Source of the DNA: Artemia franciscana
Taxonomy: Eukaryota > Arthropoda > Branchiopoda > Anostraca > Artemiidae
Assembly: GCF_032884065.1 (NCBI RefSeq)
Contig: NC_088864.1
Coordinates: forward strand, 21,876,994-21,940,993
Direction of reading: 5' to 3'
DNA: 64,000 nucleotides
Positions 7,541 to 53,498 of the stretch are shown here, piece after piece. Position 1 is the first letter of the stretch; every line of letters begins with the position of its first letter. Both the position numbers and the translations under genes were made by a program. The notes under the pieces were generated by a model that saw only the letters and a program-made list of their open reading frames with translations, searched no databases and was not told the origin of the DNA.

Positions 7541-7811
7541 ACAAGTTTTTTGAAATGAAAGTAAGGAGTGACATTAAAACTTAAAACGAACAGAAATTAC
7601 TCTATGTATGAAAGGGGCTTTTCCTCCTCGACGCCCCGCTCTTTACGCTAAAGTTTTTTATTGTTTTGAAAAGTAGAGTTGCGAGAAAGAATCAAACTTT
7701 AGCGCAAGGAGCGGGGTGTCAAGGAGGAAAAGCCCCTTTCATATACGGAGTAATTTCTGTTCGTTTTAAGTTTTAATGTCGCTCCTTACTTTCATTTCAA
7801 AAAACTTGTTT
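7541..7811. repeat. Tail foldback of MH1
   Basis: The two arms, each about 120 bases, are reverse complements almost throughout, from acaagttttttgaaatgaaa on the left to its mirror at 7792-7811. The loop is about 35 bases (about 7660-7696). Both arms share the private cttttcctcctYgacrcccc block. Confidence 0.85.
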
Positions 7812-9678
7812 TTTTTTTTATTTAATTTCTGAAAGTTTTTGAATTAATGCATGTCTGAATTTGGCTCTCCGTACATAAATTATTAAAATGAAATTTGCAA
7901 ATTAATTCTTTTTTTTAAGCTAAATGGCTTTCTCTGAGTTTTGATCAGACGATTTTGAGAAATAAGGGGTGGGGAAGGAGGCCTAGTTGACCTCCAATTT
8001 TTCGGTTACTTAAAAAGGCAACTAGAACTTTTAATTTTTAACGAACGTTTTTATTAGTAAAAATATACGTAACTTAAGAATTAACTTACGTAACAAACTT
8101 TTATATTCTTATATTTTTGATTATATATATGAGGGGGTTTGTCCCCTCGTTAATACCTCGGTCTTCACACTAAATCTTAAGTTTTTTCACAATTCTTTAA
8201 GAATGACCCCTGAATCAGAAAGGCCGTAGAATAAATAGTTGAAATTACTAGAAATAATATAGCATAAAGAGCGAAGTATTTATCTCCTCCTAAATACCTC
8301 TCTCTTTATGCTAAAGTATTTTTAGAACCCCTCATGTGCGTAATAATGTCTGTTCGTTTTCAGTTTTAATGCTTCTCCTTACTTTCAATTGAAAAAACTT
8401 TTTCATGTTTATATTTTCATTGTTTTTTTTTAATAGTAATGCTAAAAAAAAAACAGCGCATTTCTGAACGTTTTTGAATTAATGCAAGTTTTGATTTTGG
8501 CTCTCCGCACATTAATAATGAAAACGAAATTTGCATATTAATATTTTTTGGCTAAATGGCTTTTTCATAGTTTTAATCGGAAGATTTTGAGAAAAAAGGA
8601 GCGGAAGAAAAGGCCAAACTGCCCTCCAGTTTTTGATTACTTAAAAAAACAACTAGAACTTTTAATTTTTCACGAACTTTTTGACTAGTAAAAAATATAC
8701 GCAATTTATAAATTAACTTACGAAACGAACTTCTATTATCGTATGTTTTTAGTACATGTATGGGGGGGGGGTTCACCCCCTCGTCAATATCTCGCTCTTT
8801 ACACTAAAACTTGAATTTTGTCCCAATTCCTTAACAATGACCCCTGAATCACAAAGGCCGTAGAATAAATAGTTGAAATTACCAAAAATACTTTAGCGTA
8901 AAGAGCGAGGTATTACAAGGAGGTGAACCCCTCACTGTATAATGATTTTTGTTCGTTTCAAGCTTTAATGCTACTCCTTACTTTCATTTGGAAAAACTTT
9001 TCATATTTATTTTTCATTGTTTTTTTTTTTAAATAATGCTAGAAAGTCCTGCGCTCCCTTCATTGAAATTCTCTTCCCCCATGACATATTCCTCCATGGA
9101 AAGATCCTCCCATGTAACCCCCCCTCAAACTCTCCCCCCAAACCAAAAAAATTCCCCTGAATACGTCTGTACACTTCCCAATAGCCATTAGTATACGTAA
9201 ACAACGGTCAAAGTTTGTAACTTGCAGCCCCTCTCACGGGGACTATTGGGAAGTAAGTCGTCCCCAAAAACACAGTTATTAGGTTTTCCAACTTTGATTT
9301 ACAAAATAGTTATCTCAGAATTTCTATCCAGTGACTTTGGGGAAAAATGAGCGTGGGAGGAGGCCTAGGTGCCCTCCAATTGTTTGGTCACTTAAAAACG
9401 GCACTAAAACTTTTAATTTCCGTTAGAATGAGCCCTCACGCGACATTCTAGGACCACTGAATCGATACGATCAGCCCTGCAAAAAAACAAAAACAAATAA
9501 ACACTCATCCGTGATCTGTCTTCTGGCAAAAATGTGAAATTCCACATTTTTGTAGAGGAGCTTGAAACTTCTACAAAAGGGTTCTCTCATACGCTGTATC
9601 TGATGGTGTGATAGTTGTTAAGATTGTATTACTTTTAGGGGGTGCTTCCCCCTATTTTCTAAAATAAGGCAAATTTTC

Positions 9679-9855
9679 TCAGGCTCGTAACTTTTGATGG
9701 GCAAGACTAAACTTGATAAAACTTATATATTTAAAATCAGCATTAAAATGCGATTCTTTTGATGTAAATATTTGTATCAAAATTCTGTGTTTTAGAGTTT
9801 CGTTTACTATTGAGCCGGGTCGCTCCTTACTACAGTTCGTTACCACGAACTGTTT
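9679..9855 (-). other. Conserved 59-codon open frame in the MH1 head
   Basis: The frame begins KQFVVTNCSKERPGSIV inside the terminal palindrome and ends KLRA-stop. The same frame with the same stop is open in all six MH copies that have a full head. I do not recognise the peptide. There is no start codon at the element edge, so translation would need an upstream exon or a flanking ATG. It may only be a low-stop stretch. Confidence 0.4.
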
Positions 9856-9857
9856 GA

Positions 9858-10672
9858 AAGAGCACATAAACAAAAAAACTTACCGCAGAATGAGCCCTCT
9901 CTCAATATGCTAAGAACAAGCGCTTAATACTATCACCCAGCCCTAAAAAAAAAAAACGGTATCTCTGACCCTCTTAAGTAAAAACACAAAATTTCAGATA
10001 CTTTGTATATACGTCCAAATTCTTTGTGCTATGGCTTTCAGATATGCTGAATTGAACGGTGAGACTTTCGCCAAGACTTCATACTTTTTTGGGTTCTCCT
10101 TCCGTTTTTTTAACAATAAAAAAGTTTCTAATTCTAATGCTAGCCTGATTATCCAAACAAGATTCAGCTATAAATTGAATTTATTTTACATGTTTGGAAT
10201 CAAATAAAAACAGATCTATTTGGAATACTAATTGTTATCCCAATTCCGTTTTAGAACCCTGGTTACTACTTTAGTGACCCTTCATCACCAAGAACGGCTT
10301 GACCTCATTGTTTTTTAATAGACAATGAAACGATTATTTTTTACTTCTTAAACATAATATTTTAATTTTGATAAATTGAGTTATTTTTAGATTAAGTAAA
10401 CAGTGAAGCATTATTACTAAGAAAGACAATGGACTGATTTAGACCATGAATTTTACTACGCATATTCTTGTTTTTGCCAAAACATTATCTATGTAAAAAC
10501 ACTATCAGGAACTTAGGACAGACTTGTAAAAAAAATTTAAAGTAAAAAAAAATATTAAAAACCAGAAGCGTTTCAAAGAGAATTTGAGATGCGTCTTGTG
10601 CGTTTAAATCTTTGTTTGACATTACAAATTAATTACTTATTAAAAGGATCGATCTGTGCTTGTTATTACATA
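9858..10672. other. Spacer between MH1 and MH2
   Basis: AT-rich sequence in which I see no gene, RNA or named repeat. Confidence 0.5.
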
Positions 10673-12353
10673 AAAAACTAGTTTTTTTAACTGAAAGTAA
10701 GGAGCAACATTAAAACTTAAAACGAACAGAAATTACTCCGTATATGAAATGGGTTGTCCCCTCCGCAATCCCTCGCTCTTTACGCTAAAACTTTTAATTG
10801 TTTTAAAAAGCAGAATTGTGGCAAAGAGTCAAACTTTAGCGTAAAGAGCGAGGGATTGCGGAGGGGACAACCCATTTCATATACGGAGTAATTTCTGTTC
10901 GTTTTAATGTCGCTCCTTACTTTCAGTTAAAAAAACTAGTTTTTTTTAATGTAATTTCTGAACGTTTTTGAATTAATGCATGTTTGATTTTGGCTCTCCA
11001 CAGATAAATTATTAAAATGAAATTTGCATATTAATTCCTTTTTTGGCTAAATGGCTTTCTCTTAGTTTTGATCAGACGATTTTGAGAAATAAGGGATGGG
11101 GAAGGAGGCCTAGTTGCCATGCAATTTTTCGGTTACATAAAAAGGCAACTATAAATTTTAATTTTTAACGAATGTTTTTATTAGTAAAAAATATACGTAA
11201 CTTAAGAATTAATTTACGTAACAAACTTTTATATTTTTTAATTTTTATTATGTATATGAGGGGATTTGTACCCTCGTTAATACCTTGTTCTTTACACTAA
11301 ATCATAAGTTTTGTCCCAATTCTTTAAGAATGACGCCTGAATCAGTAGAATAAATAGAGCCGTAGAATAAATAGTTGAAATTACTAAAAATACTATAGCA
11401 TAAAGAGCGAGGTATTTATCTCCTCCTAAATACCTCGCTCTTTATGCTAAAGTATTTTTAGAAACCCTCACATGCGTAATAATCTCTGTTTGTTTTATGT
11501 TTCAATGCTACTCTTTACTTTCAATTGAAAAACTTTTCCATGTTTTATTTTTTCATCATTTTTTTATAGTAATTTTAGAAAATCCTGCGCCCTTTTCATT
11601 GAATTTTCGTTCCCCCGTGACATATTTCTCCAAAGAAAGATCCTCCCACATAGCCCCCTCTCCTCAACCCCAAAACCAAAAAAAAATCCCCAGAAAACGA
11701 CTGTACACTTCCCAATAACCATTATTATATGTAAACACTGGTCGAAGTTTGTAACCTGCAGCCCCTCCCCCAGGGACTGTGGGGAATAAGTCATTCCCAA
11801 AGACATAGTTATTCTGGTTTTTGACTATGCAGAACAAAATGGCTATCTCAAAATTTCGATCTGTTGACTTTGGAGAAAAAATGAGCATGGGAGGGGGCCT
11901 ATGTGCCCTCCAATTTTTTGGTCTACCCTCTTGCGACATTCTAGGACCACTTGGTCGATACGATGACCCCTGGAAAAAAAAAAAAAACAGATAAACACGC
12001 ACCCGTGACGCACTTCTGGCCAAAAATACGAAATTCCACATTTTTGTAGATAAGAGCTTGAAAATTTTGCTATAGGGTTCTCTGATACAACGAATGCGAT
12101 GGTGTGATTTTCGTTGAGATTCTGTGACTTTTAGGGGGTGTTTTCCCCTATTTTCTAAAATAAGGCAAATTTTTTCAGGCTCGTAAGTTTTGATGACAAA
12201 GACTAAATTCGATGAAACTTATATATTTAAAATCAGCAAGAAAATCTGATTCTTTTAATGTATATTTTAGCATCAAAATTCCGTTTTTTAAAGTTTCGTT
12301 TACTATTGAGCCGGGTCGCTCCTTACTACAGTTCGTTACCACGAACTGTTTGA
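10673..12353 (-). mobile_element. MH element copy 2
   Basis: This is a 1.68-kb copy in the same orientation as MH1. The tail foldback is at about 10,673-10,950, with arms around ccgcaatccctcgctcttta and its mirror at about 10,840-10,870. A single module follows at about 10,955-11,530, then the head to 12,353. The tail arms belong to a different sequence class (ccgcaatccctcgc) from MH1, MH4, MH5 and MH7 (aacgccccgc), and MH6 shares this class. The head frame at 12,175-12,351 is open for 59 codons. Confidence 0.8.
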
Positions 12354-14224
12354 TATCCAAAATGCGTTACTAGGACGAGAAGGGGAGTTCACTCTTAAAA
12401 TTACAAAATGTCTAAAATATTTTCTAACACCTCGAAGAATTATCTTTTTTAAATGGAGTGTATTAAGATTTGTTGTGCAGGATTCCCTTTAACAAGGAAA
12501 AGCCAAGCTCCATGTATAGGCCCCAACTAAGCGTAAAAGATACGTCTCAGGTAACCATTGCTTTTCGAAATTAGCAGCTTAGTTATTCACTCTATCAAGC
12601 CTTTTAAGTAACGCACGTTCATGTATTTTCTGTCAGTCACTTGAACGCCACATATCATATCACACAGCTTAAAGCTTTTCTTCAAAGACCATACAACAAA
12701 AAGTAAAACAGGGTGTCTCCATTAGGCAGATATGTCTCAAAGGTAGAAGACAGGCTATACCCTCTCCCAAATTTATGTATTTAGTGAATATTATTGCCTC
12801 CATTAGGCAAAGATTTTTGTAGACACAGAGATCGGGGCAAACCCATGAAGCCGATATTATTGTATTTCTTCTGTCCGTATTCAAATTCAGTGATTTAACA
12901 TTTGTTTCAACAGCTAGTCTTAGGGGGGTGGAGAAAGGAGGTATTTATTTTGTTGATCTTTTAGTTCTGCACTGTCTTGATTTAACTCCCTGGAATAAAA
13001 AACTGTTTCCAAAAAGCCCAAAAATCTTGTTTTCGCTTTTCTTGAGAATCGGAGAAGAACACCCTTTTGTTTTGAGGAGGGCGATACAGGATAGAAAGTG
13101 CAAGATTCCCGAGGCATCACAAGCGGTAAATGTTTTAAGAGGTACTAACGATTGTGACCAATGAAGAAGCCTACATGGATTTATCTTCAGTTGAGAGGCA
13201 GCTCCACTGTTTAGTACAGAACAATTTTCATCTTCTAAAGTAGCTTGCTCAAAGAAAGCGTAGTCCCCTGAAATGCACGTAAAAGTGCAACCAATATTCA
13301 TTTTTGAGATGACCTTAAGATCGGTATTATTACTGTATCTACATTTCAAAATACGTTTTATTTGAAAATCATATGTATTTACGTTCCGATCTTGAACTTG
13401 AAATGCAACCATCATGGATCAAAGATACACAAAAATACGTACTTGCCCGAAATTTTTGCTACAAGTCGCTGGGATGCGATTTTTTTTGTTATATTTTTAA
13501 TACGAAATGCTTCCTATCGAAGATTTTGGAGCGGAAATTTCTGCCGTTTTACTTCATCGGGAGTCATACTTGTTGGTTATTCCAAGAAGCTGAAATCCCT
13601 ATTAAAGTAGCTTCAAAATAGTTACGTCTTGTAAATATTGACAGAAAGTCAAATCTAGCATACCGATTTGAAAAGGGGATAAGTGCATGGAACTGTTATT
13701 TGTGCAAACAAAGAGAAAAAGGCAGATGCTATGGATGATTCACCGAGCTAATAAATTATTCTAGCTCTGGTCTTTTCTAGCTCCTTTGTTGTAGTTTCAG
13801 CTAACAACTGCCATAATTTTTGAATTTAGCTTTTCTGAGATACTAGCTCAGCTTTTGGGAAAATACAGTAATAAAAAAAAATTAAAAATCGTATAGAATT
13901 TTTTTTTGTGATTGATAGGGACCTGGTATTGAAACCAGGTTTTTACGGACCCTCCGCCGGGAAAATTCCCCTTGGCAATTGTATTCTTGTTAAAAATTCC
14001 CCACGGAGATTTTTTTTGCGGACGATTCCAGGTGATTTTTTTTTTTTTTTTTTTAGCACACTTTCATTTGAAAAAGGCTTTAATTCCGGATTTTTTTTCA
14101 AATCATACCGGAAATTACCCATCTGTAGAAAATTTTCCCACAGCCAAAATAAAGCAAATAGAAAGTTGCTCCTGTAAAAAATTCCCCCTGAAGAATCTAT
14201 TCTGCGAAAACAGTGTGATTTTCA
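12354..14224. other. Region without a recognised gene
   Basis: It contains a 156-codon minus-strand open frame at 12,945-13,415, the longest in the window. Overlapping plus-strand frames lie at 12,928-13,164 and 13,362-13,621. None shows a domain, compositional bias or neighbouring splice pattern that I can tie to a protein family. From about 13,860 the sequence becomes T-rich, and it may be a very degraded MH-like piece leading into the next feature. Confidence 0.4.
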
Positions 14225-14489
14225 GATACACTGAGCCTGATGGTGTGATTTTCATTAAGATTCCTTGACTTTTAGTGGGGGGGGGGGGGGTGGTAGTCCA
14301 CTTTTCATAAATCAGGTTAATTTTCCAAGGCTCTTGTCTTTTGATGGGTAACACTAAACTTAATAAATCTTATATATTTGGAATCAGCATAATAAGCCGA
14401 TTCTTCGGTGCATCTATTGATTTCAAAATTCCATTCCTTTTAGTCTCGGTTACTATTGAGCAGCGTCACTCCTTACTTACAGTTCGTAG
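14225..14489 (-). mobile_element. MH element copy 3, degraded head fragment
   Basis: Diverged head sequence: ggtgtgattttcattaagat, a G run in place of the agggggtg block, ttgatgggtaacactaaact, then ttgagcagcgtcactcctta and a damaged palindrome. It lacks the module and tail foldback and differs from the other copies at many positions, so it is probably the oldest copy. The 59-codon frame is not open here. Confidence 0.65.
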
Positions 14490-17400
14490 TTTTAACAGGA
14501 TGAAGATTAGACAATAAAAGTTTTAGTTTAAGGAAAGACCCCCCACCCCAAAGTAAGAAACATATTGTATGGGTAAAAACGAAAAACAGGCCAAAAACTG
14601 AATTAAAAACAGGTTTTTCATGTAAAAGTAAAGAGCAACCTAGACAAAGATTTAAATGGGCAGAAGTTATTTTAGCTATGAGAGGTACAAGCCCCATTCT
14701 GTACGATAAAGGGCCTTTCACGTCGCTTTAATGGAACTTACATTACATACCCAAGTAAATATAAGGGTATATGATTCATAGGGTGAAGATAATCTACCAA
14801 TCACAAACAAGTTTACATACTTTATATAAACCAGTGTAATAGTCCTACATATACAATTTTAATCCCCAACAAAATTTTACTCCCGCTTTACTTAAACTAA
14901 CTACTTTTCAAATAAGCGCTCTTAAAAAAATAATGTTTTATTAACTATTTTGCTTTATTTCTTTTTAGCCTGGTTGGACATTCCAGTATCTATCCGAAAG
15001 AGTTTCTGGACAAAGTGCTATCACCGCTAATTTAACAATGATGATTTTTGGCCTACCCTTGCAACGGCATTCTAAATGATATTAATATTTACCCCAAGGA
15101 CTGCAGATTTTGTACCTAATGATTTTTTAAAATAAACGTTCGTAAATTTACATATTATTCAGCAAGATATAGTAACTCATCATTTGTCTCTAGAAAACTC
15201 AAACTTGTATTTCTTTTATTTAGTTGTTCAACATTGTCGGGTTCCTTACGGATCTTGCATGTTCGTTTTGTTCCCGTGTTCTTTGTTCTAAGGCCTAACT
15301 CCCGCCAAAGGTCCTCTATTAAGATATTGTTGAAACAAAAAACAGATATCTCAATAGGTAAGAAGTGTGTTTCCCGCATATGAAAAGAAATGCCCATGGG
15401 CTCCTCTTACATATAACATATTCTTTGATTTCGTAATATTTTCTATAACCTAGCTCCCACCGAAGGTTCAGCATTGGGCTCCTGTTACAAAAAACAACAA
15501 CAAAAATATCTCAATAGGTATAGAAATACGCCTTTGTATAAAAAAAAAAACACAATTAGTTGACAAACATTGATTTTCCTAATAGCCTCATATTTGGGGC
15601 TACAAAAAAATTACTCTTTTTCATCCCGAACAATCCATGCACTGACAATCAGGGGGCTTACACGTAATCAATCTTGTAGATTCACAAAAACTTTGCAAAC
15701 GTATGCTGGATGATATGGGTTGAAACACGCATCTGTATAATCCAGTTTAATTTTCTTGTAAGTTGCTACGAGGTGGAATTCAAAATTCGCTTGTTTTTTT
15801 TTAAACAATGCTCCATTAACTGCAGCATCTTTGTACATGTTTAATAATAATTGTAGCCGCAGCCGCACAGAGATCTGGACCAAATGGCGGGTAAGGGAGG
15901 GATCAGAACATTTTGCCATTCGAAATAACTTTGAAACATAGACTGGCAAAATTCTTTGGTGTAAAAACTACAAGATCAGGTCTCATAAAACTCTGTTCCA
16001 TTGGCTTTCAACCTTATTTTGAAATGACATAGTTGCCAACCATCTTTTCTTGATTTTTTTTTTTTTTAATATGACTTAAAAAAAGAAGTGATAAAGAACA
16101 TAATTAAAGAACCCACAAGGTCTGATCTTTGAACATGTTTTAAAAGAAACTGACAGAAGCGTTACGACATTCAGGCAAGGATTAGTTGCCAAAATTACTT
16201 TCTGAGTAAGAAAAAACAGATATTTTGTTTGGGAATTTTGATGCTGATGGAAGCGATACAGTTTGAAATAACAGTAGCTGTTTCCGCGGGGTTATTAACA
16301 AGTTTCTTTGTCAGATTTCAACGAACTTTTCTATTGTTTTCTAATCAAAACTATTCTTTTAAAGATGGATAAAAACAAGGAAAATTATCCTTCAACAAAT
16401 TTCAACCTGTTTTAAAAGCATTTTTAATCAAGAAAACCTGTATACCGAATTTCAAAAATTAATCTGGTAGATGGATAAAACTAAATGCCAGCTATTGAGT
16501 GATAGAAAATTTTCCCTTTTCGTTTTTTTTTTAAATACCGTAGGATAGCGGAACAATAACATACCGAAACTAGCACAGGGAATATAATCTTAAATTTAGC
16601 AGCAGTTTCGGAAGAGTCTCACTGCATACGATGCTAACTGTTACATCAGAATATTTCTTGTTGGCGAACTTCTACTCTATCGCTCGGTGGGGCCCTGGAG
16701 GTCAACTTTTTTTATTGTTTTAGCAGTCTTCATGTCCTTAACAAGTTCATTTTTATCTTTCAATTAAACAGTAGCTTAGGACTACCCCTCAAACAATCCT
16801 TTTGAATGGAATATAGGGCTGACTACTCTACTTTATATTATTTGAAACCGTACACTTCCAGCCAATCACTAATCTGAGAACAGTCACCCGATAATGCGAC
16901 CTGAAGCGTCCCTAGGTACTTTTATCCTAACGAGTACCTATTTTTAAACTTTATGCCAGAAAATTATTACAAAAATAGTTTACAGTTAGTAGGTTTCATC
17001 AGACGGTGACGAATTTTATTGGTAGTTTGGTCAATATAGTTTTGTCTCGTGTGTGGGGTTAGAGATGATACTTTCACGAACAATTTCATGGAGAAAAAGA
17101 TGAGGGTAACAGGGCTAAAAATTGTATATCTGGGGAAACTTAACCTACCCCTTGATGCCTTTTTTTATGTTCTTTACCCAAAATTATTTATAATTACGTT
17201 AGGTCAAAAAGTGCTTAAATTTGAATTTGTGATAGAAGCGACTATTATTTTCTTGGTCTTCAGAGAAGAATATACGGTACATTCTTTCTTCTTTTTTATG
17301 TCTGTCATCCATCAGGTTCTTATACTAATCATTATATATAAATTCGAATGTATGTCTATGTCTGCCTTGTCCTACAGTAAATGATTGTATTAACCATAGA

Positions 17401-18865
17401 TTACAGATACTGATGTAGATGAATAAACAAATGTTAAAACAATTAAAGAATGAATTGAATATTAAAGTCAAACTTGAAACGAACAAAAGCTACCACAATC
17501 AGGAGTTTGGCTACTACCCTTTTACCATAAAAGTTTTAATGCCTATTGGGCTTTCCTTTTCATTGAAAACTGTATGCATTTTGAGCATTGTGGTTTAATT
17601 TACTATCATAATCAAGATGATTAAAGAACTAATGAAAACGAATTGACTATATTATATTAATTCCTGGAAATCTCAACACTTCAAGATACAACACTGCACA
17701 AAAACACAGCCCTTTGTATTTCCTTTACAGTGAATAAAAAAAAAAAATTATTTACAACATTTTTTTTTTCATTTACCTTGTCGGGACAGATGGGATTTAC
17801 AGCTCCTGGTTAAAAAAAAAGCAAGGTTTGGCACTTCAGAGTAAAAATAGCGAGATTTTATAGATCTTGTCGGATACTCCATTCAGATTTCAGAGACCAT
17901 TATATTGATATGTCAACTCAATTAGATGATATGTCATTTAAAAATTGGATATAGATTGTACAACATGGTCAGTAAATTTGTCATATATAAGAGTGTTGAA
18001 CACTAAAAAATCTTATTTTGCAATTAAGCGTTTTGGCTTTTCTGATAAAGGTAGGTAAATGCAATTGTTCCCTAATTTAACAAACACTGATTTATAGTTC
18101 AGATTGCATAAAATTTGGCCATTTCGCTTATGTTCGGAATAACAGCACTATTTATCTCTGGGACCCTGACGTCCCGTCAGTCAGTAACAGTACTTTTTGA
18201 TTGAGGTGTATTCTTGATATTTTTTCACAAATAGTGAAATACGATCTTTCAAAACTAGTTTATATACAGCAAGATTCCGGAGCAGTGGCGGAGGGATAGG
18301 GGAAATAGCCCCTTGATTTTTTTTTCCCCTCTGATTTCTAAAAATGCCTTTTTTATATTTTTTGGAAAATACCTGTTTTTGGCAATTCATTAAAAAACAA
18401 TAAAGACCAACAAAACCTGCCCTAGATTTTTAGAATACCAAATATATTTTGCCAACCTCTCCATCAAAATTTCATGAAGTTATCATGAAGTTAAGGCGCA
18501 GGAGTCATTTTTGCTTGACAAGTCTTATTTTCTATTATGTTATTTATTGTCCTTTATTGAAGTTCTTAATAATATTTTTTACCTTTATTTATTATTTTTT
18601 TTATTTTTCATTTTTGTCATTTTTTACATCATTTTTATATTTATTCCTTTCTATTTTTTTAAATATTTATTTATATATTACTAAATATACATTTATTATT
18701 TCTTTATATTTTAATTACTGATTCTCTACACATTTTTCTATTTTATTAATATCACTTATTAATTTTACTTTTTAAAATTAATCCATAATATGCATTTCTC
18801 TATTTTATAAATGCCATTTATCAATTCTATTTTGATACAGAATGTTTTCTTTTCTGAACATTAAG
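14490..18865. other. Long stretch without recognised features
   Basis: AT-rich DNA with homopolymer runs. Frames at 15,155-15,397, 15,668-15,949 and 17,049-17,384 have no recognisable motif. At 18,530-18,720 there is a low-complexity T-rich tract. Confidence 0.5.
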
Positions 18866-20403: not shown

Positions 20404-21868
20404 TCAAACAGTTCGTGGTAACGAACTGTAGTAAGGAGCGACCCGGCTCAATAGTAACCAAAACTCTAAAAAATGGAATTTTGATACCAATAGCTACATC
20501 AAAAGAATCGCATTTTAATGCTGGTTTTAAATATATAAGTTTCATCAAGTTTAGTCTTACCCATCAAAAGTTACGAGCCTGAGAAAATTTGCGCTATTTT
20601 AGAAAATAGGGGGAAACACCCCCTAAAAGTCATGGAATCTTAACGAAAATCACATCATCAGATTCAGCGTATCAGAGAACCCTACTGTAGAAGTTTCGAG
20701 CTCCTATCTATAAAAATGTGGAATTTTGTATTTTTTGCTGGAAGGCAGATCACGGATGCGTGTTTTATTTGTTTTTTTTTTCCAGGGGTGATCGTATCGA
20801 CCCAGTTGTCCTAGAGTGTTGCAAGAGGGCTCATTCTAACGGAAATGAAAAGTTCTAGTGCCCTTTTTAAGTGACCAAAAAAATTGGAGGGCACCTAGGC
20901 CCCCTCCCACGCTAATTATTTTCCCAAAGTCAACGGATCAAAATTCTGAGATAGCCATTTTATTCAGTGTAGTCGAAATGTTTATTCAGTGTAGTATTTT
21001 AAAAAAAAAACAATTAAAAAATAAATGTGAAAAAGCTTTTTCACCTGGAAGTAAGGAACAGCAATAAAACTTAAAACAAACAGAAATTATTACCCATATG
21101 AGGGGCTCACCTCCTTCTAATACCTCGCTCTTTACGCTAAAGTATTTTTAGTAATTTCAACTATTTATTCTACGGCTTTTGTGATTCAGGGGTCATTCTA
21201 AATGAATTGGGATGAAATTTAAGCTTTAGTGTAAAGAGCGAGGTACTGACGATGGGGCGAATCCCCTCATATATGTAATAAAAACATGAGAATACAAAAG
21301 TTCTTTACGTAAGCTAATTTATAAGTTACGTAAATCTTTTACCAATAAAAATATTCGTAAAAAATTAAAAGTTCTAGTTGCCTTTTTAATTAACCAAAAA
21401 ATCGGAGGGCAACTAGGCTTCGTCCCCCGCTCTTTTTTTCTCAAAATCATTCGATCAAAATTATGAGAAAGCTATTTAGCCAAAAAAAAAATATGCAAAT
21501 TTCGTTTTGATTATTCCTCTGCGGAGAGCCAAAATCAAAACATGCATTGATTCAAAAACGTTCAGAAATTAAATAAAAAAAACACGTTTTTTTAACTGGA
21601 AGTAAGGAGCGATATTAAAACTTAAAACGCACAGAAATTACTTCGTATATGAAAGAGGCTGCTACCTCATCAACGCCCCGCTCTTTACGCTAAAATTTTT
21701 TTACTGTTTTAAAAAGAAGAATTGAGAGAAAGAGTCAAACTTTAGCGTAAAGAACGGGGCGTTGATGAGGTAGCAGCCTCTTTCATATACGAAGTAATTT
21801 CTGTGCGTTTTAAGTTTTAATGTCGCTCCTTACTTCCAGTTAAAAAAACTTGTTTTTGTTTATTTAAT
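20404..21868 (+). mobile_element. MH element copy 4
   Basis: This is a 1.46-kb copy. Head TCAAACAG and palindrome at 20,404-20,427, head frame open at 20,406-20,582, module about 21,040-21,590, tail foldback about 21,575-21,868. The two tail arms share changes not seen in other copies (acgcacag with ctgtgcgt, and gaaagaggct with agcctctttc). Within the copy, the sequence ctggaagtaaggaRc-aYtaaaacttaaaac occurs twice in direct orientation (about 21,053 and 21,596), and each introduces an inverted-repeat block built on ctcgctctttacgctaaag or ccgctctttacgctaaaa. Confidence 0.85.
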
Positions 21869-22586: not shown

Positions 22587-22592
22587 TTTATT
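22587..22592 (-). terminator. RPL36A: RPL36A polyadenylation signal
   Basis: AATAAA on the minus strand, starting 47 bases past the stop codon of exon 4. The short 3' UTR is typical of ribosomal protein genes. Confidence 0.75.
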
Positions 22593-32270: not shown

Positions 32271-33860
32271 TCAAACAGTTCGTGGTAACGAACTGTAGTA
32301 AGGAGCGACCCGGCTCAATAGTAATCAAAACTCTAAAAAATGAAATTTTGATACCAATAGCTACATCAAAAGAATCGCATTTTAATGCTGATTTTAAATA
32401 TATAAGTTTCATTAAGTTTAGTCTTAACCATCAAAAGTTACGAGCCTGAGAAAATTTGCGTTATTTTAGAAAATAGGGGGAAACACCCCCTAAAAGTCAT
32501 AGAATCTTAACGAAAATCACACCATCAGATTCAGCGTATCAGAGAACCCTACTGTAGAAGTTTCAAGCTCCTATCTACAAAAATGTGGAATTTTGTATTT
32601 TTTGCCAGAAGGCAGATCACGGATGCGTGTTTATTTGTTTGTTTTTTTTTTTGTTTTTTTTTTTCTTTTTCCCAGGGGTGATCGTATTGACCCAGTTGTC
32701 CTAGAATGTTGCAAGAGGGCTCATTCTAACGAAAATGAAAAGTTCTAGTGCCCTTTTTAACTGACCAAAAAAATTGGAGGGCACCTAGGCCCCCTCCCAC
32801 GCTAGTTATTTTCCCAAAGTCAACGGATTAAAATTCTGAGATAGCCATCTTATTCAGCGTATTCAGCGTAAAAACCTTATAACTGTGTCTTTGGGGACGA
32901 AATACTCCCCCACAGTCCCCGTGGGAGGGGCTACAAGTTACAAACTTTGACCAGTGCTTACATATAGTAATGGTTATTGGGAAGTGTGCAGGCGTTTTCA
33001 GTAGGTTTTTGGTTGGGGGAGGGGTTGAGAATAGGGGGATAGGCTGGTGGAGCTTTCCATCGAGGAATTTGTCATGGCAGAAGAAAATTTCCATGAAGGG
33101 AGCGGAGGATTTACTAGCATTATTTAAAAAAAAAAACAATGTAAAAAGAAATATGAAAAAAAAATTCAGCTGGAAGTAAATAGCAGCATTAAAACTTAAA
33201 ACGAACAGAAATTATTACCCATATGAGGGGCTCACCTCCTCCTAATACCCCGCTCTTTACGCTAAAGTATTTTTAGTAATTTCAACTATTTATTTTACGG
33301 CTTTGGTGATTCAGGGGTCATCCTTAATGAATTGGGACAAAATTTAAGCTTTAGTGTAAAGAGCGAGGTACTGACGAGGGGGGAACCCCTCAAATATGTA
33401 ATAAAAACATGAGAATACAAAACTTCTTTACGTAAGCTAATTTATAAGTTACGTATATCTTTTACTAAAAAAAGATTCGTAAAAAATTAAAAGTTCTAGT
33501 TGCCTTTATCTTAATTAACCAAAAAATCGGAGGGCAACTAGGCTTCCTCCCCCGCTCTTTTTTCTCAAAATCATTCGATCAAAATTATGAGAAAGCCATT
33601 TAGCAAAAAAAAAAAATGCAAATTTCGTTTTAATTATTCCTCTGCGGAGAGCCAAAATCAAAACATGCATTGATTGAAAAACGTTCAGAAACTAAATAAA
33701 AAAAACAAGTTTTTTTAACTGAAAGTAAGGAGCAAAATTAAAACTTAAAACGAACAGAAATTACTTCGTATATGAAAGGGGCTGCTTCCTTACCAACACC
33801 CCGCTCTTTACGCTAAAGTTTTTTACTGTTTTAAAAAGAAGAGTTGAGAGAAAGAGTCAA
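32271..33860 (+). mobile_element. MH element copy 5, tail cut in the loop
   Basis: Head TCAAACAG at 32,271, open head frame at 32,273-32,449 (59 codons), head body with an expanded T-rich run near 32,640, module about 33,170-33,715, left arm of the tail foldback about 33,700-33,830. The copy stops at about 33,860 in the foldback loop, so the right arm is missing. Confidence 0.8.
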
Positions 33861-37504: not shown

Positions 37505-40020
37505 TGGCTTAATGAACCAACTCTTGCCAACAGCAATTTTAAAGGTGTTAACAGAGGGAGCAGTTACAGCAGTATCAGGAAGATTGTTACAATGGCTAAT
37601 TACTATTAGAGAAGTAGTGGTTGTGGACTCTGGTATCTGCCCTATTCCAGGACAACTTCTTATCATGCCCCCTTGTCCTCAAGGATTCAGCAAATTGAAA
37701 TAGATTATGACAGGAGTCAGCATTCAAAGATGGATTGTCAAGATTCTTGGATCCATCCACAACTTTTGTTGCCTGTTTTTGGACATATTCTATTTTTTGC
37801 TGATCACCCTTGTTCATGGGTGTTGCAACACACTTACCAAATTCTAGCAGTGATCACACAAGACCCTTGTACAGTTTGGTCATAACATTGGATGGTCTGC
37901 TATGTAGAGTATGCTTGAAGGGTCTGGGATGCTTTGGCAATTGGTGTTTGAGCAGGCTTGTTAAATTTTAGTTCCTCATCAACAACAATTCCCAAATCAC
38001 TCCCCTCTGCCAAACAGTCAATCAATTACCTTGAACCATGTCCTCCTATCAAATGGTACTGCCACCTTATGTTTTTTCTCCCAAAGTGCATTACTGGCAC
38101 TTCTGAATGTCAAGTTCAAGTTTCCACTCATGGGCCCATAGTGAAATCAAAGTCAGGTATTCTTATATGGAAGCTCTTGTAACTGACAACTCTGCAGAGC
38201 CAATAAGCTTCAAGTCATCAGAATAAAGGCTCATCTTATTTCTTACAGCTTCTGAAGCATCATTAATGAAAATGTTGAACAATGTTGGAGCTAGGATTGT
38301 TCCCTGAGGCAAACCACTGTCAACTTCTGATAAGAATTCTTTTCCATTTTCTACAAATACCTTGACTCTGCTTTCTTCTTGAAAGGAACTAGTTTTATCT
38401 TCAGCCAGTAATGACAGACTTTATCAAATGCTTTTGGAAAATCTAAAATGATTATGTTAACTGGAGTACTGAGATCTAGGAACTTAGTGATATAGTCATA
38501 AGCATCTATAAGATTTGTATTAACAGAGTGACCAGGTCTGAAGCCATGTTTGCTGTTTATGAGCAGTTTGTTGTCAAATAAATGTTTTGCAATTGCGGTA
38601 TTCACAATTCCTTCAAGAATTTTATCAACTGTTGAGGCAGTGCTAATTGGCTAGCAATTGGCAACATTATTCCTACTTCCACCCATGTGGACAGGTGCAA
38701 TATTTGCATTTTGCTGATCATGAGATACTACTTTGGTATCTAGAGTCTTTTGGAACAGTATTGTTAAGGGAGAGGGAAGCTCCAAATGGGCCTCTTTTAA
38801 GGTCTTTGGGTGAACTCCATCAGGGCCAACAGACTTATTTGGATTTAAGCTTCTGAGCCAAAGTTCTACATCCACAGGTTTTATGGTGATAACTTGCTTA
38901 TGCCTCTCAATATTGTAATCCAGAATTTCTGGCAAGGGAACATTATCAGGAGGAGTGAAAACTGACCTGAATTGCTTATTTAGGGCTTCAGCAATATCTT
39001 CAGGATTGATTATAATATTCTTATTAACTCAGAGTTTTGTTACTGAATGTATACCTGGCTTTTGAATTGAGGCATATTTCCAAAGCTTCTCTGGATTAGT
39101 TGTTGAAGCTGATGTTAAGAAATCCTCATACTTGCTTGTAAGTTTTCTTGTAAGGTGCCAGACTTTGTTTTGCATCACTTTAAAATTGTTAGAATTTGCC
39201 TGTGTTGGAACGTCCCTGTAGTTTCTCCAGAATTATTTTTCCTTTAGATTGCTGGCCTAATTTCTTGTATCACATAAGGGAGCCTTCTTTGTCTTTGTTT
39301 CCAAGTGGTTGTTGTATATTTTGCAGTTGTCTGTGCAAGAACCCTTTTCATGTCAATCCAAGCTTCCTCTGTATTTTTTTTTTTTTTTTCAACAAAGGAC
39401 CAATCTTGGTTTGCTAGATCTTGCCTAACCTTGTTATAATTTGTAAAGACGTGCTTTCTAAATTGTCTGTTTGTGGGTACAGTGAGTGGCTGTGAGTCAA
39501 CACTTTGGATTGCTTCCTCATCTTTAACAAATTGAAGATCCAAGAAAGTCTGGTTCTGACCCCCTATGATACCTCGTTGAGAAATTAATAGCCTGATATA
39601 ACGAATAGCCTTGCCTATATGATTGCTCATATAGGCAATCAAGGAATGGTTCAGTCTGATCCTCATTATTACCTATGGCAGCATAGTCATCCACCCATTA
39701 AATTTAGGGCAGCTTAAAGTCTCCAACAATTAATACATTTTGCAAAGGATAACTCATCAATGAACTTATAGCATTTGTAATTGTAAGATGGGAACTTTTC
39801 TGACAGGGAACTTTCAAGCTTGGGCTTCTATAAATACATCCTATAATTAAAGGATGTCCCTTTTGCTCAATCTTTATTTATACCTGCTCTGCCCATGGCC
39901 CATACTAAGAACCAAGTTTAGGAGTTCCTACTCTCAGGGTTGATGGGATGTACAAGACAATTCCTCTTCCTTCAGGATTCAAATGCTTGAAAAAATTCTA
40001 AACCCAGGGATCTGGATTTG
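37505..40020 (-). pseudogene. LINE, Jockey/CR1-like endonuclease and reverse transcriptase, decayed
   Basis: Minus-strand frames give, in order from 40.0 kb downward, an apurinic-type endonuclease part (GRGIVLYIPSTLR, then GCIYRSPS and VGDFKLP near 39,870-39,710); a linker region; reverse transcriptase fingers and palm (LNPNKSVGPDGVHPKTLKE near 38,850; HLFDNKLLINSKHGFRPGHS and IILDFPKAFDKV at 38,605-38,430; LPQGTILAPTLFNIF near 38,310); a YSDDL box (38,225-38,211) where YADD is usual; and the C-terminal region (DQQKIEYVQKQATKVV, LRTRGHDKKL) down to about 37,510. The element would copy itself by target-primed reverse transcription. Several frameshifts and stops break it, and the 5' part of the endonuclease and any ORF1 are missing. 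Almost all CpGs are lost. The clade cannot be fixed by eye. Confidence 0.85.
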
Positions 40021-43000: not shown

Positions 43001-43082
43001 CAGATTGGTAGGTGTGCCCAGACAATGGTTAAAGAGAGAGCATTTTGGGGCCAAAATATCTAGGTTAAAAAGCATTAGACAT
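40021..43082. other. Stretch upstream of WASHC3 exon, nothing named
   Basis: Plus-strand frames at 40,512-40,721 and 41,879-42,118 have protein-like composition but no family I recognise and no clear splice context. CpG is scarce up to about 41,690 and normal beyond. Confidence 0.4.
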
Positions 43083-43392: not shown

Positions 43393-43401
43393 ATTTTACA
43401 G

Positions 43402-46500: not shown

Positions 46501-47814
46501 TCTTCAGATTGCTGCTCGAGGTATGGGGAATGGAAAAGTCTTTGTAAAAAAGAAGAGTGTCTGTAGTGGAGATTTACTAACGATGGCGTCTTGGTATTAA
46601 GACGGATGTTCTAACATTTTCAGCTGTCTGGACTGATTTTCTATAAAATAAAGGAAAATCAGCTTCCACTAGCTCTTTTAATACAGACTTGCATAGAGCG
46701 CCGTGTTCACAGTTGGTAAGTAGATCTAATTTTCTATCTGCAGAGAAACGGAAGTTGAAAGCAGAATCGAACTCACTTTTTGAACAAGAATCATAGGAAA
46801 AATGAAGCTGAACTCGGGTCTTGCTAAAGAATTTGCTTTTGTGTCACAAATCAAAGCATCATGTGTCACAAAAGCAAAGGAGGTTTTGCTTTTTTGTGTG
46901 TGGCAGAGCAGAAGCTAATCCCTCAGTTCGTTTGGGGGAACAATAAAAAAAAGTCTCGCAAATATTCGTATAATATTTGAATTAGGTCCAGTCTGGAGGC
47001 CTTCACCAGGGCAAGTTATAAACAATGCGTGTAAATGGTTAGTTGATACTGCTTTCGTACCTCTGCTTGTGCCCACTTGTACAAAACGGACATGCTACTA
47101 CCTCCAACAATGCCAATTCCAAATAACTTGTTTATTTCCAATACATCGCAATTCATCACTAATCGAAACAGTCCTTTGAATATCCTTTCATTTTTAATAT
47201 TTTTTGCAAGAGATCCAGCTTTTTCGCAAAGACCCCGCAGGGCTAGTTCATGAAAGCCATAAAATAGAGTCTTTAATCCTTTCCTTATGATTTTCCAAAA
47301 TCAATTACCGATCAATTAGAATACTTTTTCCTTCTTGTATTTTGATAAATGTCATAGATTTTTGTATTGCAGTAATATGATACTGTCTTTCATCACGATA
47401 TATGAAGTCAGCGAGGGCATACTTAAGGTCAGTGACTTCTGATGTGAACCTTTACTGATCTCAAATTTTGTAAATAGCTTTTATATAATGTACCAGTTTT
47501 CGAAGGACTGAACACCAACCATGAATACTTTTTGGCCATGTACTTTGATACGACGGCGTTTTGTCACTATGCCCTTAATATTCCCGTTGACTATTTCAGG
47601 AAATTCGTAGTCCTTTCCTTGTTTTCAGTGCCCAAGTCCAACTTTCAAGCATCAGAAATCTGTTCACGGTTAACAAAGGACTCAAGACTAATATCAAGCA
47701 AGGTGATTATAGGCGTAGTGACTTATGTGCCTTCTGAATATTGGTCTATTTCATGAAAGGGATTATTATTGTTTCGGCTTTGAAGATATTCTAATGTCTG
47801 AGAAGTAGAATAGT

Positions 47815-48790
47815 ACTTTATTATCAAGCAAACTCTTACAACTTAATAAACTGTCGAACTTGTTGCCTTCAGTCAGCTAGCCTACATTGTATACAAAAAA
47901 CAAAAACAAAATATAAGTACATGAGTGTAATATTAAACCACTGCCTACAGCGATGAGCCAAACTACATTGAATAAAATGAACAAAAATGAGCACTTAAGT
48001 ACATAAGTACATAAGTAAAATGTAAGTAAAATTAGTAAAAGTAAGTAATGTAAGCAAAATGAATAAAAACGAGGGCAAAAGTAAAACGTAAGTACAATAT
48101 AAAAAACATACAGCGATGAATCCAACTGGCCTGTCAAATAAAAATAAAAAACAACAACAAAAAACTAACACATTAACACTACAATAATTTCAACGAACGC
48201 TGGCATAAAGCTCTTCCTGTAATGCTCAGTTCTTGCATTACTAGGATTTAATACCAGGATTTTTTGTGCTTTTGATTGGAGTAAACGAGACTTTTGAGGA
48301 CAAGAAGGGGTTGGGAGTATACATTGAAAGCCTGGGTTACGACGTAGATTATTTCCGAAATTGGTGCATAGAGTAACACGTCGGGCTGCCAAGGTAAGGA
48401 GGAGGAATTCCTTGAGGAGGACGATTTAAGGTACTTTGTCCTGACTGTAAATAATTCTCAGGACTCTTCTGGATAATTTCGAGCCTATTGGACTGATCCA
48501 CTGTAAGACTAAAATACCGCACCGGGCAAGCATACTCAAGCTGTGGACGGATAAAATATATATAAAGGCGGAGGATTTGTGCTTTTGGGCATGAAAATTT
48601 AGCAAGTAGTTTAAGGAAAGACAGAGATGTACTAGCCTGTTTAACAATAGAGCAAGTATGGGCTTCCCATTTCAAATTGCTAGTCAGTGTGACCTTTAAG
48701 AGTTTAGTTTTGTTGTAATTATTTCATTAGGTATTGGGGTTATAAATGATGGTTTTGATTTAAGGAAGCTAAAGGTCATAATGTGACCTT
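47815..48790 (-). pseudogene. LINE 3' fragment, CR1/Jockey-like
   Basis: The minus strand gives MTFSFLKSKPSF (about 48,780), KLLKVTLTSNLKWEAHTC (about 48,705-48,650), LYIYFIRPQLEYACPV and DQSNRLEIIQK. These are the post-catalytic part of a non-LTR reverse transcriptase (compare the LGVTL..LKWDAHI and YIRPVLEYACPVW blocks of such LINEs). The C-terminal tail continues in shifted frames to about 48,165, then 3' UTR to about 47,815. Palm and endonuclease are absent: a 5'-truncated insertion that has since taken frameshifts. Confidence 0.8.
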
Positions 48791-48990
48791 TTAAGATTAT
48801 TTTAAGATTATGGGAATTATTTAAGATTATTTAATTAGATTATTATATTATTAGATTATTATATTAGATTATATTATTTGATTATATTATTAGATTATGT
48901 TATTAGATTATTAGATTATTATATTATTAGATTATTATATTATGTTATTATTAGATTATATATATTATTATTTAGTTAAGATTATTTTAA
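48783..48990. repeat. AT-rich minisatellite (attagattatt type)
   Basis: Irregular repeats of attagattatt and variants. The flanking 15-mer aagattattttaaga occurs at both ends. Confidence 0.8.
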
Positions 48991-49670
48991 GATTATGGGA
49001 ATTAACTTTAATTTTTGACCGGGCTGCTTCACTTGTAAAATCTTTGGCAAATTAACTTGAAAAGTTGGTTTAGTTCACATATAGTTGAACAAAGCATTTA
49101 GATATTTTTCAGAGATTGAAACACAAAATAGAAGATCTTTCAATCCAATGACCAGTAAGTGTTTTGTGTTGCTCTGTTTATCAACATTGTTTGCATTTTT
49201 GTTCAAAACGGCCAAAGGCTTTCCTCTACACCCTGTTCCCTATGTGTGATTTGACTGTTTTTCTTCTTATCACGGGATTCCTGATGCCTTTTTTCTCAGA
49301 CCATGACTGAAAAAACGATCAATTCGTATTCTTGTATTTTAATGAAATTTAACTGTATTTGATTGCTATAAATTCCAAAATGGGTTTTTAATTCTTGTAA
49401 CCTTCACGGCTATATAATAGTCATGTTTCTTATTTTATTTGATTTTTACGGTAATTCCAAAAGGAGACAGGAGAACTGATCTCAGAGGCGCGCTTTCCTT
49501 TCTTTGCAGGCCGTAGGGGAAAGGGCTTGGTTAAAAAAAGAAAGAAAATAATCAAGGCCTCAGAAGATAGTTGACAAAAATGCAACTATGGTTGTTCAAC
49601 ATTCCTTTCTTGTATACCTTGGCTCATCAACAATCCTTTTCTCTTATCAACAAGGATTTTATGGCACATG

Positions 49671-51287
49671 TCAAACAGTTCGTGGTAACGAACTGTAATA
49701 AGGAGCGACCCGGCTCGATAGTAAACGAAAATCTAAAAAACGAAATTTTGATGCTAAAATATACATCAAAAGAATCAGATTTTTATGCTGATTTTATAAG
49801 TTTCATCGAATTTAGTCTTTGTCATCAAAAGTTACGAGCCTGAAAAAATTTACCTTATTTTAGAAAATAGGGAAAAACACCCCCTAAAAGTCACAGAATC
49901 TTAACAAAAATCACACCATCGCATTCGGCGTATCAGAGAACCCTATAGCTAAATTTTCAAGCTCCTATCTACAAAAATGTGGAATTTCGTATTTTTTGCC
50001 AGAAGACAAATCACGGGTGCGTGTTTATTTGGTTTTTTTTCCAGGGGTCATCGTATCGACCAAGGGGTCCTAGAATGTCGCAAGAGGGCTCATTCTAACG
50101 GAAATAAAAAGTTCTAGTGCCCTTTTTAAGTGACCGAAAAATTGGAGGGCACCTAGGCCCCCTCCCACGCTCATTTTTCTCCAAAGTGACAGATCAAAAT
50201 ATTGAGATAGCCATTTTGTTCCGCTTAGTCAAAAACCTTAATAACTATTTCTTTGGGAATGACTTACTTCCCCACAGTCCCTGGGGGAGGGGCTGCAAGT
50301 TACAAACTTCGACCAGTGTTTACATATAATAATGGTTATTGGGAAGTGTACAGTCGTTTTCAGGGGATTTTTTTTGGTTTTGGGGGTGGGGTTGAGGGGA
50401 GGGGGCTATGCGGGAGGATCTTTCCTTGGAGAAATATGTCATGGGGGAACAGAAATTCCATGAAAAGGGCAGAGATTATTACGCATATGAGGGCCTCTAA
50501 AAATACTTTTGCATAAAGAGCGAGGTATTTAGGAGGAGATAAATACCTCGCTTTTTATGCTATAATATTTTTAGTAATTTCAACTATTTATTCTACGGCC
50601 TTTCTGATTCAGGGGTCATTCTTAAAGAATTGGGACAAAACTTACGATTTAGTGTAAAGAACGAGGTATTAACGAGGGTACAAACGCCCTCATATACATA
50701 ATAAAAATTAAAGAATATAAAAGTTTGTTACGTAAGTTAATTCTAAAGTTACGTATATTTTTTGCTAATAAAAAAATTCGATAAAAATTAAAATTAATAG
50801 CTGCCTTTTTATGTCACCGAAAAATTGCATGGCAACTAGGCCTCCTTCCCCATCCCTTATTTCTCAAAATCGTCTGATCAAAACTAAGAGAAAGCCATTT
50901 AGCCAAAAAAGGAATTAATATGCGAATTTCATTTGAATAATTTACGTGTGGAGAGTCAATTTCAAACATGCATTAATTCAAAAACGTTCAGAAATTACAT
51001 AAAAAAACTAGTTTTTTTTTAACTGGAAGTAAGGAGCGACATTAAAAGTTAAAACGAACAGGAATTGCTCCGTATATGAAATGGATTGTCCTTTCCGCAA
51101 TCCATCGCTCTTTATGCTAAAGTTTGACTCTTTGCCACAATTCTGCGTTTTAGAACAATTTAAAGCTTTAGCGTAAAGAGCGAGGGATTGCGGAGGGGAC
51201 AACCCATTTCATATACGGAGTAATTTCTGTTCGTTTTAAGTTTTAATTTCGCTCCTTACTTTCAGTTAAAAAAGTAGTTTTTTTTTA
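49671..51287 (+). mobile_element. MH element copy 6
   Basis: Full-length 1.6-kb copy inside the WASHC3 intron. Head at 49,671; head frame at 49,673-49,843, open for 57 codons because two codons (KY) are missing without breaking the frame. The module is about 50,480-51,000 and the tail foldback about 51,000-51,287. Tail class is ccgcaatcc, like MH2. The left tail arm has private changes (caggaattgctcc, atccatcgc) that the right arm lacks. Confidence 0.85.
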
Positions 51288-51830
51288 TGTAATTACACTC
51301 CAGAAATGACATTAAAATTAGATTTTGGTGCCACAAGGCATTCTATTATGGTGTTGTTATTAGGAAATTATAAAAAGCGTGTAAATATGAATATTAGAAT
51401 CAGACAATATTTTGTTTAAATAATTCAATTCTTAATTAAATAATATTGAACAGCTCTCTACGATATTCTAGTGCCCTATTAGTATTGGAGAAATAAAAAA
51501 TAAAAAAAGGTGACTTATCAGTGTTTCTGGCTCTTTTTAAAAGTTCTTTGAATTTCTTTCAAAATAAAGTTTTACTCTTGAATTAAATAATAACTACTAC
51601 TCCTAAATTGACAATAATGCTGAATTTTTCTTACGAGATAGTATTTTTCTTTAATGTGTTCTTAATATTTTGACCACTACAGGCTGTCTCTATACTCGGG
51701 TACAGCTATTGTTGCTACCCCAAACTTTTCCTGCCCTGAGCATAAAAGCTCTGCTAATTTCCAGATATATAGAACAGGAGGTTAAATCGTTGTCTTGTAG
51801 AGTGGGCGACAGTTTTAAATCGGAGCAGCA

Positions 51831-53498
51831 TCAAACACTTCGTAGTAACGAACTGTAGTAAGGAGCGACCCGGTGCAATAGTAACCAAAAGTCTAAAAAA
51901 TGGAATTTTGGTCCCAATAGCTACATCAAAAGAATTGCATTTTAATGTTGATTTTAAATATGTAAGTTTCATCAAGTTTAGTCTTACCCATCAAAAGTTA
52001 CGAGCCTGAGAAAATTTGCGTTATTTTAGAAAATAGGGGGAAATACCCCCTAAAAGTCATAGAATCTTAATGAAAATCACACCATCAGATTCAGCGTATC
52101 AGAAAACCCTACTGTAGAAGTTTCAAGCTCCTATCTACAAAAATGTGGAATTTTATATTTTTTGCCAGAAGGCAGATCACGGATATGGGTGTTTATTTGT
52201 TTGTTTTTTTTGTTTTGTTTTGTTTTCCCAGGGGTCATCGTGTCGACCCAGTTGTCCTAGAATATTGCAAGATGGCACATTCTAACGGAAATGAAAAGTT
52301 CTAGTGTCCTTTTTAAGTGACCGAACAAATTGGAGGGCACCTAGGCCCCTCCAACGCTAATTATTTTCCAAAAGTCAACGAATCAAAATTCTGAGATAGC
52401 CATTTTATTCAGCGTAGTCGAAAAACCTTATAACTATGTCTTTGGGGACGACTTACTCCCCCACAGTCCCCGTGGGAGGGGTTACAAGTTCAAAACTTTG
52501 ACCAGTGCTTACATATAATAATGGTAATTGGAAAGTGTACAGGCGTTTTCAGGAGGATTTTTTGGTTGGAGGCAGGGGTTGAGAAGAGGGAGATATGCTG
52601 GGGGAACTTTCCATCGAGGAATTTGTCATGGGGGAAGAAATTTTCCATGAAGGGAGCGCAGGATTTACTAGCATTACTTGAAAAAAAAACAATGAAAAAG
52701 TTTTTTTTAGCTGGAAGTAAGCAGCAGCATTAAAACTTAAAACGAACAGAAATTATTTCCCATATGAGGGGCTCACCTCCTCCTAATACCTCGCTCTTTA
52801 CAAAAGCATTTTTAGTAAAAGTATTTTTGTAATTTCAACTATTTTTTCTGTGGCTTTTGTGATTCAGGGGTCATTCTTAATGAATTGGGACAAAATTTAA
52901 GCTTTAGTGTAATGAGCGAGGTACTGACGAGGGGGCAAACCCCCTCATATATGTAATAAAAACATAAGAATACAAAAGTTCTTTACGTAAGCTAATTTAT
53001 AAGTTACGTATATCTTTTACTTATAAAAAGATTCGTAAAAAATTAAAAGTTCTAGATGCCTTTTTAATTAACCGAAAATCGGAGGGCAACTAGGCTTCCT
53101 CCCCCGCTCTTTTTTTTTCTCAAAATCATTCGATCAAAATTATGAGAAAGCCATTTAGACAAAGAAAAATAAATATACAAATTTCGTTTTAATTATTCCT
53201 CTGCGGAGAGCCAAAATCAAAACATGCATTGATTCAAAAACGTTCAGAAATTAAATAAAAAAACCAAGTTTTTTAAATGAAAGTAAGGAGCGACATTAAG
53301 ACTTAAAATGAACAGAAATTACTCCGTATATGAAAGGGACTTTTCCTTCCAACGCCCCGCTCTTTACGCTAAAGTTTTTTTTACTGCTTTAAAATGTAGA
53401 GTTAAGTGAAAGAGTCAAACTTTAGTGCAAAGAGTGAGGCGTTGAGAAGGAAAAGCCCCTTTCATATACGGAGTAATTTCTGTTCGTTTTAAGTTTTC
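51831..53498 (+). mobile_element. MH element copy 7, tail end cut
   Basis: Head TCAAACAC at 51,831 with a slightly damaged palindrome. Head frame 51,833-52,009 is open for 59 codons. The module is about 52,720-53,270. The tail foldback is about 53,265-53,498, and its right arm stops before the terminal tccttactttcag block. Tail class is aacgccccgc, like MH1, MH4 and MH5. Confidence 0.82.

Follow-up and report, generated by a model that had tools for sequence, protein, structure and literature searches.

A probable Helitron-like transposon with a large hairpin tail in the genome of Artemia franciscana

The 64,000-nucleotide stretch of the Artemia franciscana genome considered here (NCBI RefSeq assembly GCF_032884065.1, contig NC_088864.1, positions 21,876,994 to 21,940,993; hereafter the window) carries MH, a dispersed element composed of a head, one or more internal modules and a tail that folds back on itself. 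Seven places of MH had been listed in an earlier note on this DNA, and all of them are real and far beyond chance, comprising six good copies and one fragment; the ends given there did not stand, complete copies finishing with ...TTTATTTAA or ...TATGTAA. Copy D, on the forward strand (20404–21867), is complete, runs from TCAAACAG to ATTTAA with one module, and is followed by a T at 21868 that belongs to the host. Its head hairpin (9-bp stem, 4-nt loop) lies at 20408–20429, the word GTAAGGAGCGAC, which recurs inverted near the tail end, at 20431–20442, and the tail foldback, whose arms extend to the last base, at 21569–21867 with a loop in orientation R at 21695–21740, all on the same strand. 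Copy F (49671–51292, forward strand) is also complete, from TCAAACAG to ATGTAA, and has its tail foldback at 50995–51292 with the loop in orientation I. The third complete copy, B, is on the reverse strand (10666–12353; terminus ATGTAA; tail foldback at 10666–10954, loop orientation I). Copy A (7522–9857, reverse strand) has two modules, a worn 3' end and a loop in orientation I. The three truncated copies have all lost the tail side: E (32271–33860, forward strand) is cut off within the tail loop, G (51831–53497, forward strand, loop orientation R) within the second tail arm, and the seventh copy, C (14210–14489, reverse strand), is a head-side fragment only, in which the head itself is degenerate.

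The six good copies begin with TCAAACAG or TCAAACAC, followed by the 9-bp hairpin ACAGTTCGT-GGTA-ACGAACTGT (two mismatches in copy G; folding z of -3.8 to -4.3 in three copies) and then by GTAAGGAGCGAC or a near form of it. The palindrome CAGTTCGTGGTAACGAACTG occurs six times in the window (five exact, one with two mismatches), and none is expected from shuffled sequences; the word GTAAGGAGCGAC occurs 30 times with up to two mismatches, against 1.4 expected. Comparison of the copies with the window by BLAST returned the known copy blocks and three extra short blocks of 44–102 nt. In copies B, D and F, 27 nt separate the word from the head end and 31–34 nt separate its inverse from the tail end. 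The body consists of one or more modules of about 550–600 nt, each with its own partial hairpin, and in B, F and the second module of A this hairpin bears an additional short inverted duplication. By BLAST, the single module of D is closer to the first module of A than to the second (84% vs. 79%) and that of F closer to the second than to the first (86% vs. 80%), so that copies with one module seem to derive from a two-module element by deletion. The absence of a transposase from the copies, also claimed before, agrees with the domain searches: none was recognised, and the three copy-borne open reading frames (ORFs; 127–184 amino acids) are without a Pfam domain. Rfam and tRNA searches of the window gave no matches.

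MH is abundant far outside the window, and more so than had been noted. In the whole genome (1,270,528,402 bases in 6,468 contigs), exact copies of the head hairpin word number 30,572, and its backward control is found 0 times. At approximately 1.7 kb each, the exact heads would make up about 4% of the genome, an arithmetic figure that assumes full length. Exact MH words of 21–28 bases and one degenerate word had no match in viral contigs, nor did one word in genome contigs; these sets comprise viruses, bacteria and archaea, so the result says little. The sequence words of MH were not found in the papers searched. The accessible part of the A. franciscana genome paper gives Helitrons as 8.81% of the genome (PMC11492255), and MH may name a testable family within this share, if it was counted there.

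Junctions in 40 head-bearing stretches of 5 kb, sampled from the beginning of contig C1, fix the ends of MH, which read TCAAACAG...(ATTTAA or ATGTAA). The first two bases are TC in 41 of the 42 sampled heads and in 6 of the 7 window copies. The base preceding TC is A in 38 of the 42 heads of the C1 sample, and genome-wide A precedes 19,489 of the 27,661 exact TCAAACAG heads (70.5%). At the other end, a search limited to listed hexamers found the last six bases of 38 terminal tails to be ATTTAA in 31, ATGTAA in four and others in three. Once near-duplicates are removed, all 37 distinct tails have a T directly after the terminal ..TTTAA, this base being left free in the search. No target duplication above chance was detected as shared words at the MH flanks, the longest shared word averaging 4.78 compared with 4.62 in a mismatched-pair control.

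Joining head and tail flanks gave 37 junctions, some of them at inner heads of composites whose tail also serves an outer head (the matching set has 35 distinct tails), and a match crosses the join in 11 of the 37. In five of the 11 the matches shown fall on the tail of the same or another copy and are not empty sites; the other six (L015, L017, L021, L026, L027 and L034) match an uninterrupted paralogous site. With MH defined as TC...AA and flanked by A and T, none of the six empty sites shows a gap at the join. The closest is L021, an MH nested in a module of another MH, where 119 matches cross the join (best 89%) and the joined sequence ...TTTTTTGA|TTACTTAAAAAGG... is intact in the uninterrupted relatives. 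The comparison of filled and empty sites, which the earlier note had proposed, thus shows at paralogous sites that MH inserts between a host A and T, without target duplication or loss.

The junctions also bear on two other kinds of element. MH might be a foldback or miniature inverted-repeat transposable element (MITE), moved by a DDE transposase through terminal inverted repeats, and its big foldbacks and modular repeats do recall Galileo-type foldback elements. The lack of target duplication, the differing ends and the clean A^T empty site largely refute this origin, which we consider very improbable. A retroposon with its fixed 3' end at the head and 5' truncation at the tail would agree with the loss of the tail side in all three truncated window copies (C, E and G). 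However, there is no target duplication, no A-rich or repeated 3' tail is present at the head, and the tails stop at one place before T in all 37 cases, so this explanation is scarcely credible.

Beyond the tail, the host side has a purine patch at +9 to +13, with a purine at +11 in 35 of 37 cases. Three consecutive purines (RRR) occupy +10 to +12 in 24 of 37, against 0.16 in a control further out. The relatives of L021 that lack the insertion already have the patch, and purines also occupy +10 to +12 at the only two Helitron ends of the window that could be used. Searching for the RRR pattern behind the end of the Helitron represented by a relic in the window and by locus L049 (both described below) gave 308 matches and the YYY pattern at MH 250; in both cases the matches listed were mostly internal sites. 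At G000:C8:3487237-3487263, an MH tail is fused directly to an MH head (..TTTATTTAATCAAACAGTTC), as expected from tandem insertion or a circle junction.

Foreign DNA has been captured and mobilised with MH in the fashion of Helitrons. A common 310-bp non-MH segment, 94.5–100% identical, is present in L010, L019, L022, L025, L031 and L036, and in L019 it is preceded by a partial MH and followed by a complete one. The composites L019, L025, L031 and L036 are 96.9–98.6% identical over approximately 2.9 kb. The flanks differ among L010, L019, L025, L031 and L036 (the left flank of L022 lies outside the sequence seen), and the common segment in differing surroundings means that head, foreign DNA and downstream tail moved as one unit. 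The counts of segments were 65 for the head vs. 113 for a mid segment, which recurs inside modules.

Complete copies end in a foldback, and its arms run to the last base. The foldback and the inverse head word near its end had been described before and are retained; its size of about 280 bp is corrected to about 300 nt, reaching the terminus. The tail of copy D folds with an energy of -140.5 kcal/mol (z -25.6). Among the window arms, 17 columns vary among copies in both arms, and 12 of the 17 have the same state in both arms in all five two-armed copies. Several of these 17 columns are transversions, so that the likeness stems from copying and not from stepwise compensation. The two arms of D differ at 2 of 95 positions, and D and E differ from each other at 8 of 95. 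In the wider sample, 49 foldbacks were found and 39 were used, those with unclear strand or orientation, near a locus edge or duplicated being dropped. The median arm distance is 0.055 within copies compared with 0.117 between copies, a value as low being reached by none of 10,000 permuted pairings, and in three of the 39 copies the arms are identical. Of the 29 copies with a recognisable terminus, 28 carry a second, inverted version of it at the foldback's inner foot; the two agree in their last six bases in 25 of the 28 (20 ATTTAA, five ATGTAA) and differ by one base in three, and ATTTAA is paired with ATGTAA between outer and inner foot in none of the 28. The longer a copy's own branch, the greater its arm distance (rho 0.55, p 0.0003, n = 39), which indicates that the arms begin alike and then diverge, possibly with some correction in place. 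At L028 2656–2998 and L043 2033–2644, successive tail foldbacks follow each other at a spacing of about 267 nt.

The loop between the arms is found as the same sequence in both orientations relative to the MH body. The loop of L010 is the exact reverse complement of that of L019, though both bear the captured segment, and a second, related loop sequence likewise appears by eye in both orientations. On the tail-side tree of 39 copies, the orientation changes three times, at least two of the changes being forced by well-supported branches, compared with a mean of 13.2 changes after shuffling. On the head tree of the 34 copies with a head in reach it changes five times (at least four forced, bootstrap 4–5), a figure that recombination between head and tail could have inflated. 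Since orientation is inherited in clades, the loop is not flipped at random every time. This inversion of the loop between copies and the copy-by-copy matching of the arms are new beyond the earlier note.

Long inverted repeats recombine, and both features might come from chromosomal recombination or gene conversion between the inverted arms of a Helitron-like element, which would keep the arms alike and flip the loop independently of transposition. For the loops a few inversions suffice, given their clade-wise inheritance, and the arm distance grows more slowly than under free drift: regressed on branch length it has a slope of 1.02, with a median ratio of 1.64 (37 copies), where about 2 is expected if identical arms drift freely. 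On the other hand, the arm distance does track branch length, so that settled copies are at most partly corrected, and in 28 of 29 copies the foldback stops where the transposon does. Recombination between chromosomal arms could invert loops but accounts for the age pattern less well than copying through a hairpin, and we judge it less likely than not to be the correct explanation.

The A^T insertion without duplication, the TC start, the hairpins and the capture speak for a Rep-helicase that works on single-stranded DNA, and the results on arms and loop require something more at the tail. MH is therefore probably a non-autonomous transposon of the rolling-circle (Helitron-like) kind whose tail is a hairpin. 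A HUH Rep-helicase supplied in trans would nick A^TC at the head, and a single strand would be peeled off from there, ending at the tail ...TTTAA^T. This strand would be joined to a target nicked at A^T, perhaps aided by the purine patch 9–13 nt downstream in the target. Its tail could then fold into a hairpin, and copying through the hairpin would re-equalise the arms and could invert the loop. Such folding and copying during transposition fits as the most economical reading of arms and loop. By analogy with parvoviruses, a more specific step is proposed tentatively, and on balance it is doubtful: the 3' end, paired at the foot of the foldback, may prime the second strand, and the hairpin may then be resolved by nicking the inner foot at its inverted A^T, which would renew the arms and flip the loop, so that a rolling-hairpin step would be joined to a Helitron-type insertion between A and T.

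Several observations weigh against this rolling-circle reading. Apart from the window, the sample of copies covers only the initial 2.2 Mb of a single contig. Genome-wide, 29.5% of the exact TCAAACAG heads are without a preceding A, compared with 4 of 42 in the C1 sample, and in the window only three of six heads have it (A, C, G, A, T and A); random bases before the head, which the window alone had suggested, were overturned by the genome-wide counts. Only L021 has a close empty site, the best matches of the other five being 65–80% identical and lying below the 90% that is used in the available portion of PMC4067079. The matching of the arms is not fully tidy either: in the window arms, 21 further columns vary in one arm only, and the observed pairing of arms ranks 2 of 120 permutations, tied with the B–F swap. 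With close relatives in the sample, the nearest arm is the copy's own opposite one in 16 of the 39 copies, and in only seven of the 39 does that arm lie closer than the same-side arms of all other copies. The slow growth of the arm distance given above belongs here as well, and so does the 3' end, which in the 38 terminal tails, from the search limited to listed hexamers, is not the CTRR of Helitron1. The TC start, for which the head was taken as 5', favours this polarity; the opposite one, with the tail as the 5' end, is conceivable. Finally, the Pfam Rep family gave 150 scored matches in the genome (197–205 bits) out of 7,435 candidates, 148 of the 150 being without an internal stop. The one of these 150 loci that was read, L049 (G000:C4:35366246-35376245), encodes an ORF of 1,688 amino acids with PIF1, Helitron_like_N and STPR repeats; neither the MH head nor the word was found there, and the search for an autonomous element with MH ends, covering this single Rep locus, found none.

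The window also holds traces of other elements. L049 is kin of a canonical Helitron relic at 58881–63139 of the window, in which the C-terminus of a helicase is visible by eye (INKAQGQSL...YVAYSRVGKPDHLF), and in which Pfam gives only a weak Herpes_Helicase match under the cut-off. The relic has tandem GTCCCGGTCGTCATTT repeats and a 175-nt inverted repeat, and it ends with ...CACCTAG|T. ORF pieces at 38651–39672 and 48349–48723 resemble by eye the reverse transcriptase of a long interspersed nuclear element (LINE), and no such Pfam family was matched.

Among known systems, MH behaves as Helitrons do, yet it belongs to none of the subgroups described, since it lacks one defining feature each of Helitron1, Helitron2 and Helentron/HINE. 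The earlier suggestion of a rolling-circle relative is upheld by the gap-free A^T empty sites, the lack of target duplication, the TC start and the capture; the Helentron/HINE label is not, because of the A^T target and the repeat geometry. With Helitron1, MH shares the insertion between A and T without duplication (one close and five distant empty sites), the 5' TC, a palindrome near the other end, the capture of foreign DNA and the protein-less high-copy derivatives. The palindrome in MH, an A/T one such as AAAAAACTAGTTTTTT, lies by eye about 6–9 nt from the tail end within the large foldback, and the short hairpin of Helitron1 lies 10–12 nt before the 3' end. MH differs from Helitron1 in its 3' end (TTAA or GTAA, not CTRR), in its head hairpin, in the 300-nt foldback tail with a loop in both orientations and in the lack of a partner found.

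Helentron, HINE and DINE-1 elements resemble MH in their subterminal inverted repeats, 3' stem-loop, internal repeats and absence of duplication. According to the accessible sections of PMC4067079, Helentrons and HINEs insert at TT or T-rich sites, and in mite families their subterminal repeats lie 2–4 nt from the 5' end; MH differs in its A^T target, its repeat geometry and its giant foldback. Helitron2 elements and the Fusarium FoHeli1-2, as far as the available text describes them, likewise carry a 12-bp inverted repeat and form a hairpin at each end, and FoHeli1 begins with TCAG. Their targets are TNAT|T (FoHeli) and TTTT|T/C (Helitron2), their 3' end is different, and the asymmetric terminal inverted repeat of Helitron2 lies 0–2 bp from the 5' end and 20–30 bp from the 3' end, whereas the repeat of MH is not at the 5' tip. 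Could MH be a true Helentron/HINE or Helitron2 derivative? The hairpins at both ends, the 12-bp inverted word and the lack of duplication match what is given in the available parts of PMC3627910, PMC4067079 and PMC5148889. Read from the tail, MH moreover has the word within a 5' hairpin and again directly before a 3' hairpin, which is nearer to Helitron2 as outlined in the same part of PMC3627910. There, the Chlamydomonas elements CRe-1 to 3 of the Helitron2 group are also described as often 5'-truncated, and in the window the head-side sequence is kept in all seven copies. Such a derivation is nevertheless unlikely, as the target is A^T and not TT or TTTT, and as the words lie 27 and 31–34 nt from the ends and not 0–4 nt from the 5' end.

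Literature joining Helitron with hairpin or parvovirus wording was absent among the matches listed. The HUH nucleases of rolling-circle transposition are related to those of rolling-hairpin replication, yet the two are regarded as distinct life styles. The telomeres of parvoviruses are terminal hairpins whose foot is the end of the molecule, whose arms match and whose loop occurs in both orientations, and the tail of MH resembles them in these features. MH differs in being a chromosomal transposon, in having no recognised proteins and in bearing the large hairpin at one end only. With a Helitron-type insertion joined to a telomere-like hairpin, and with more than 30,000 exact head words and copies of graded ages, MH makes it possible to ask from sequence when arms are renewed and when loops are flipped.

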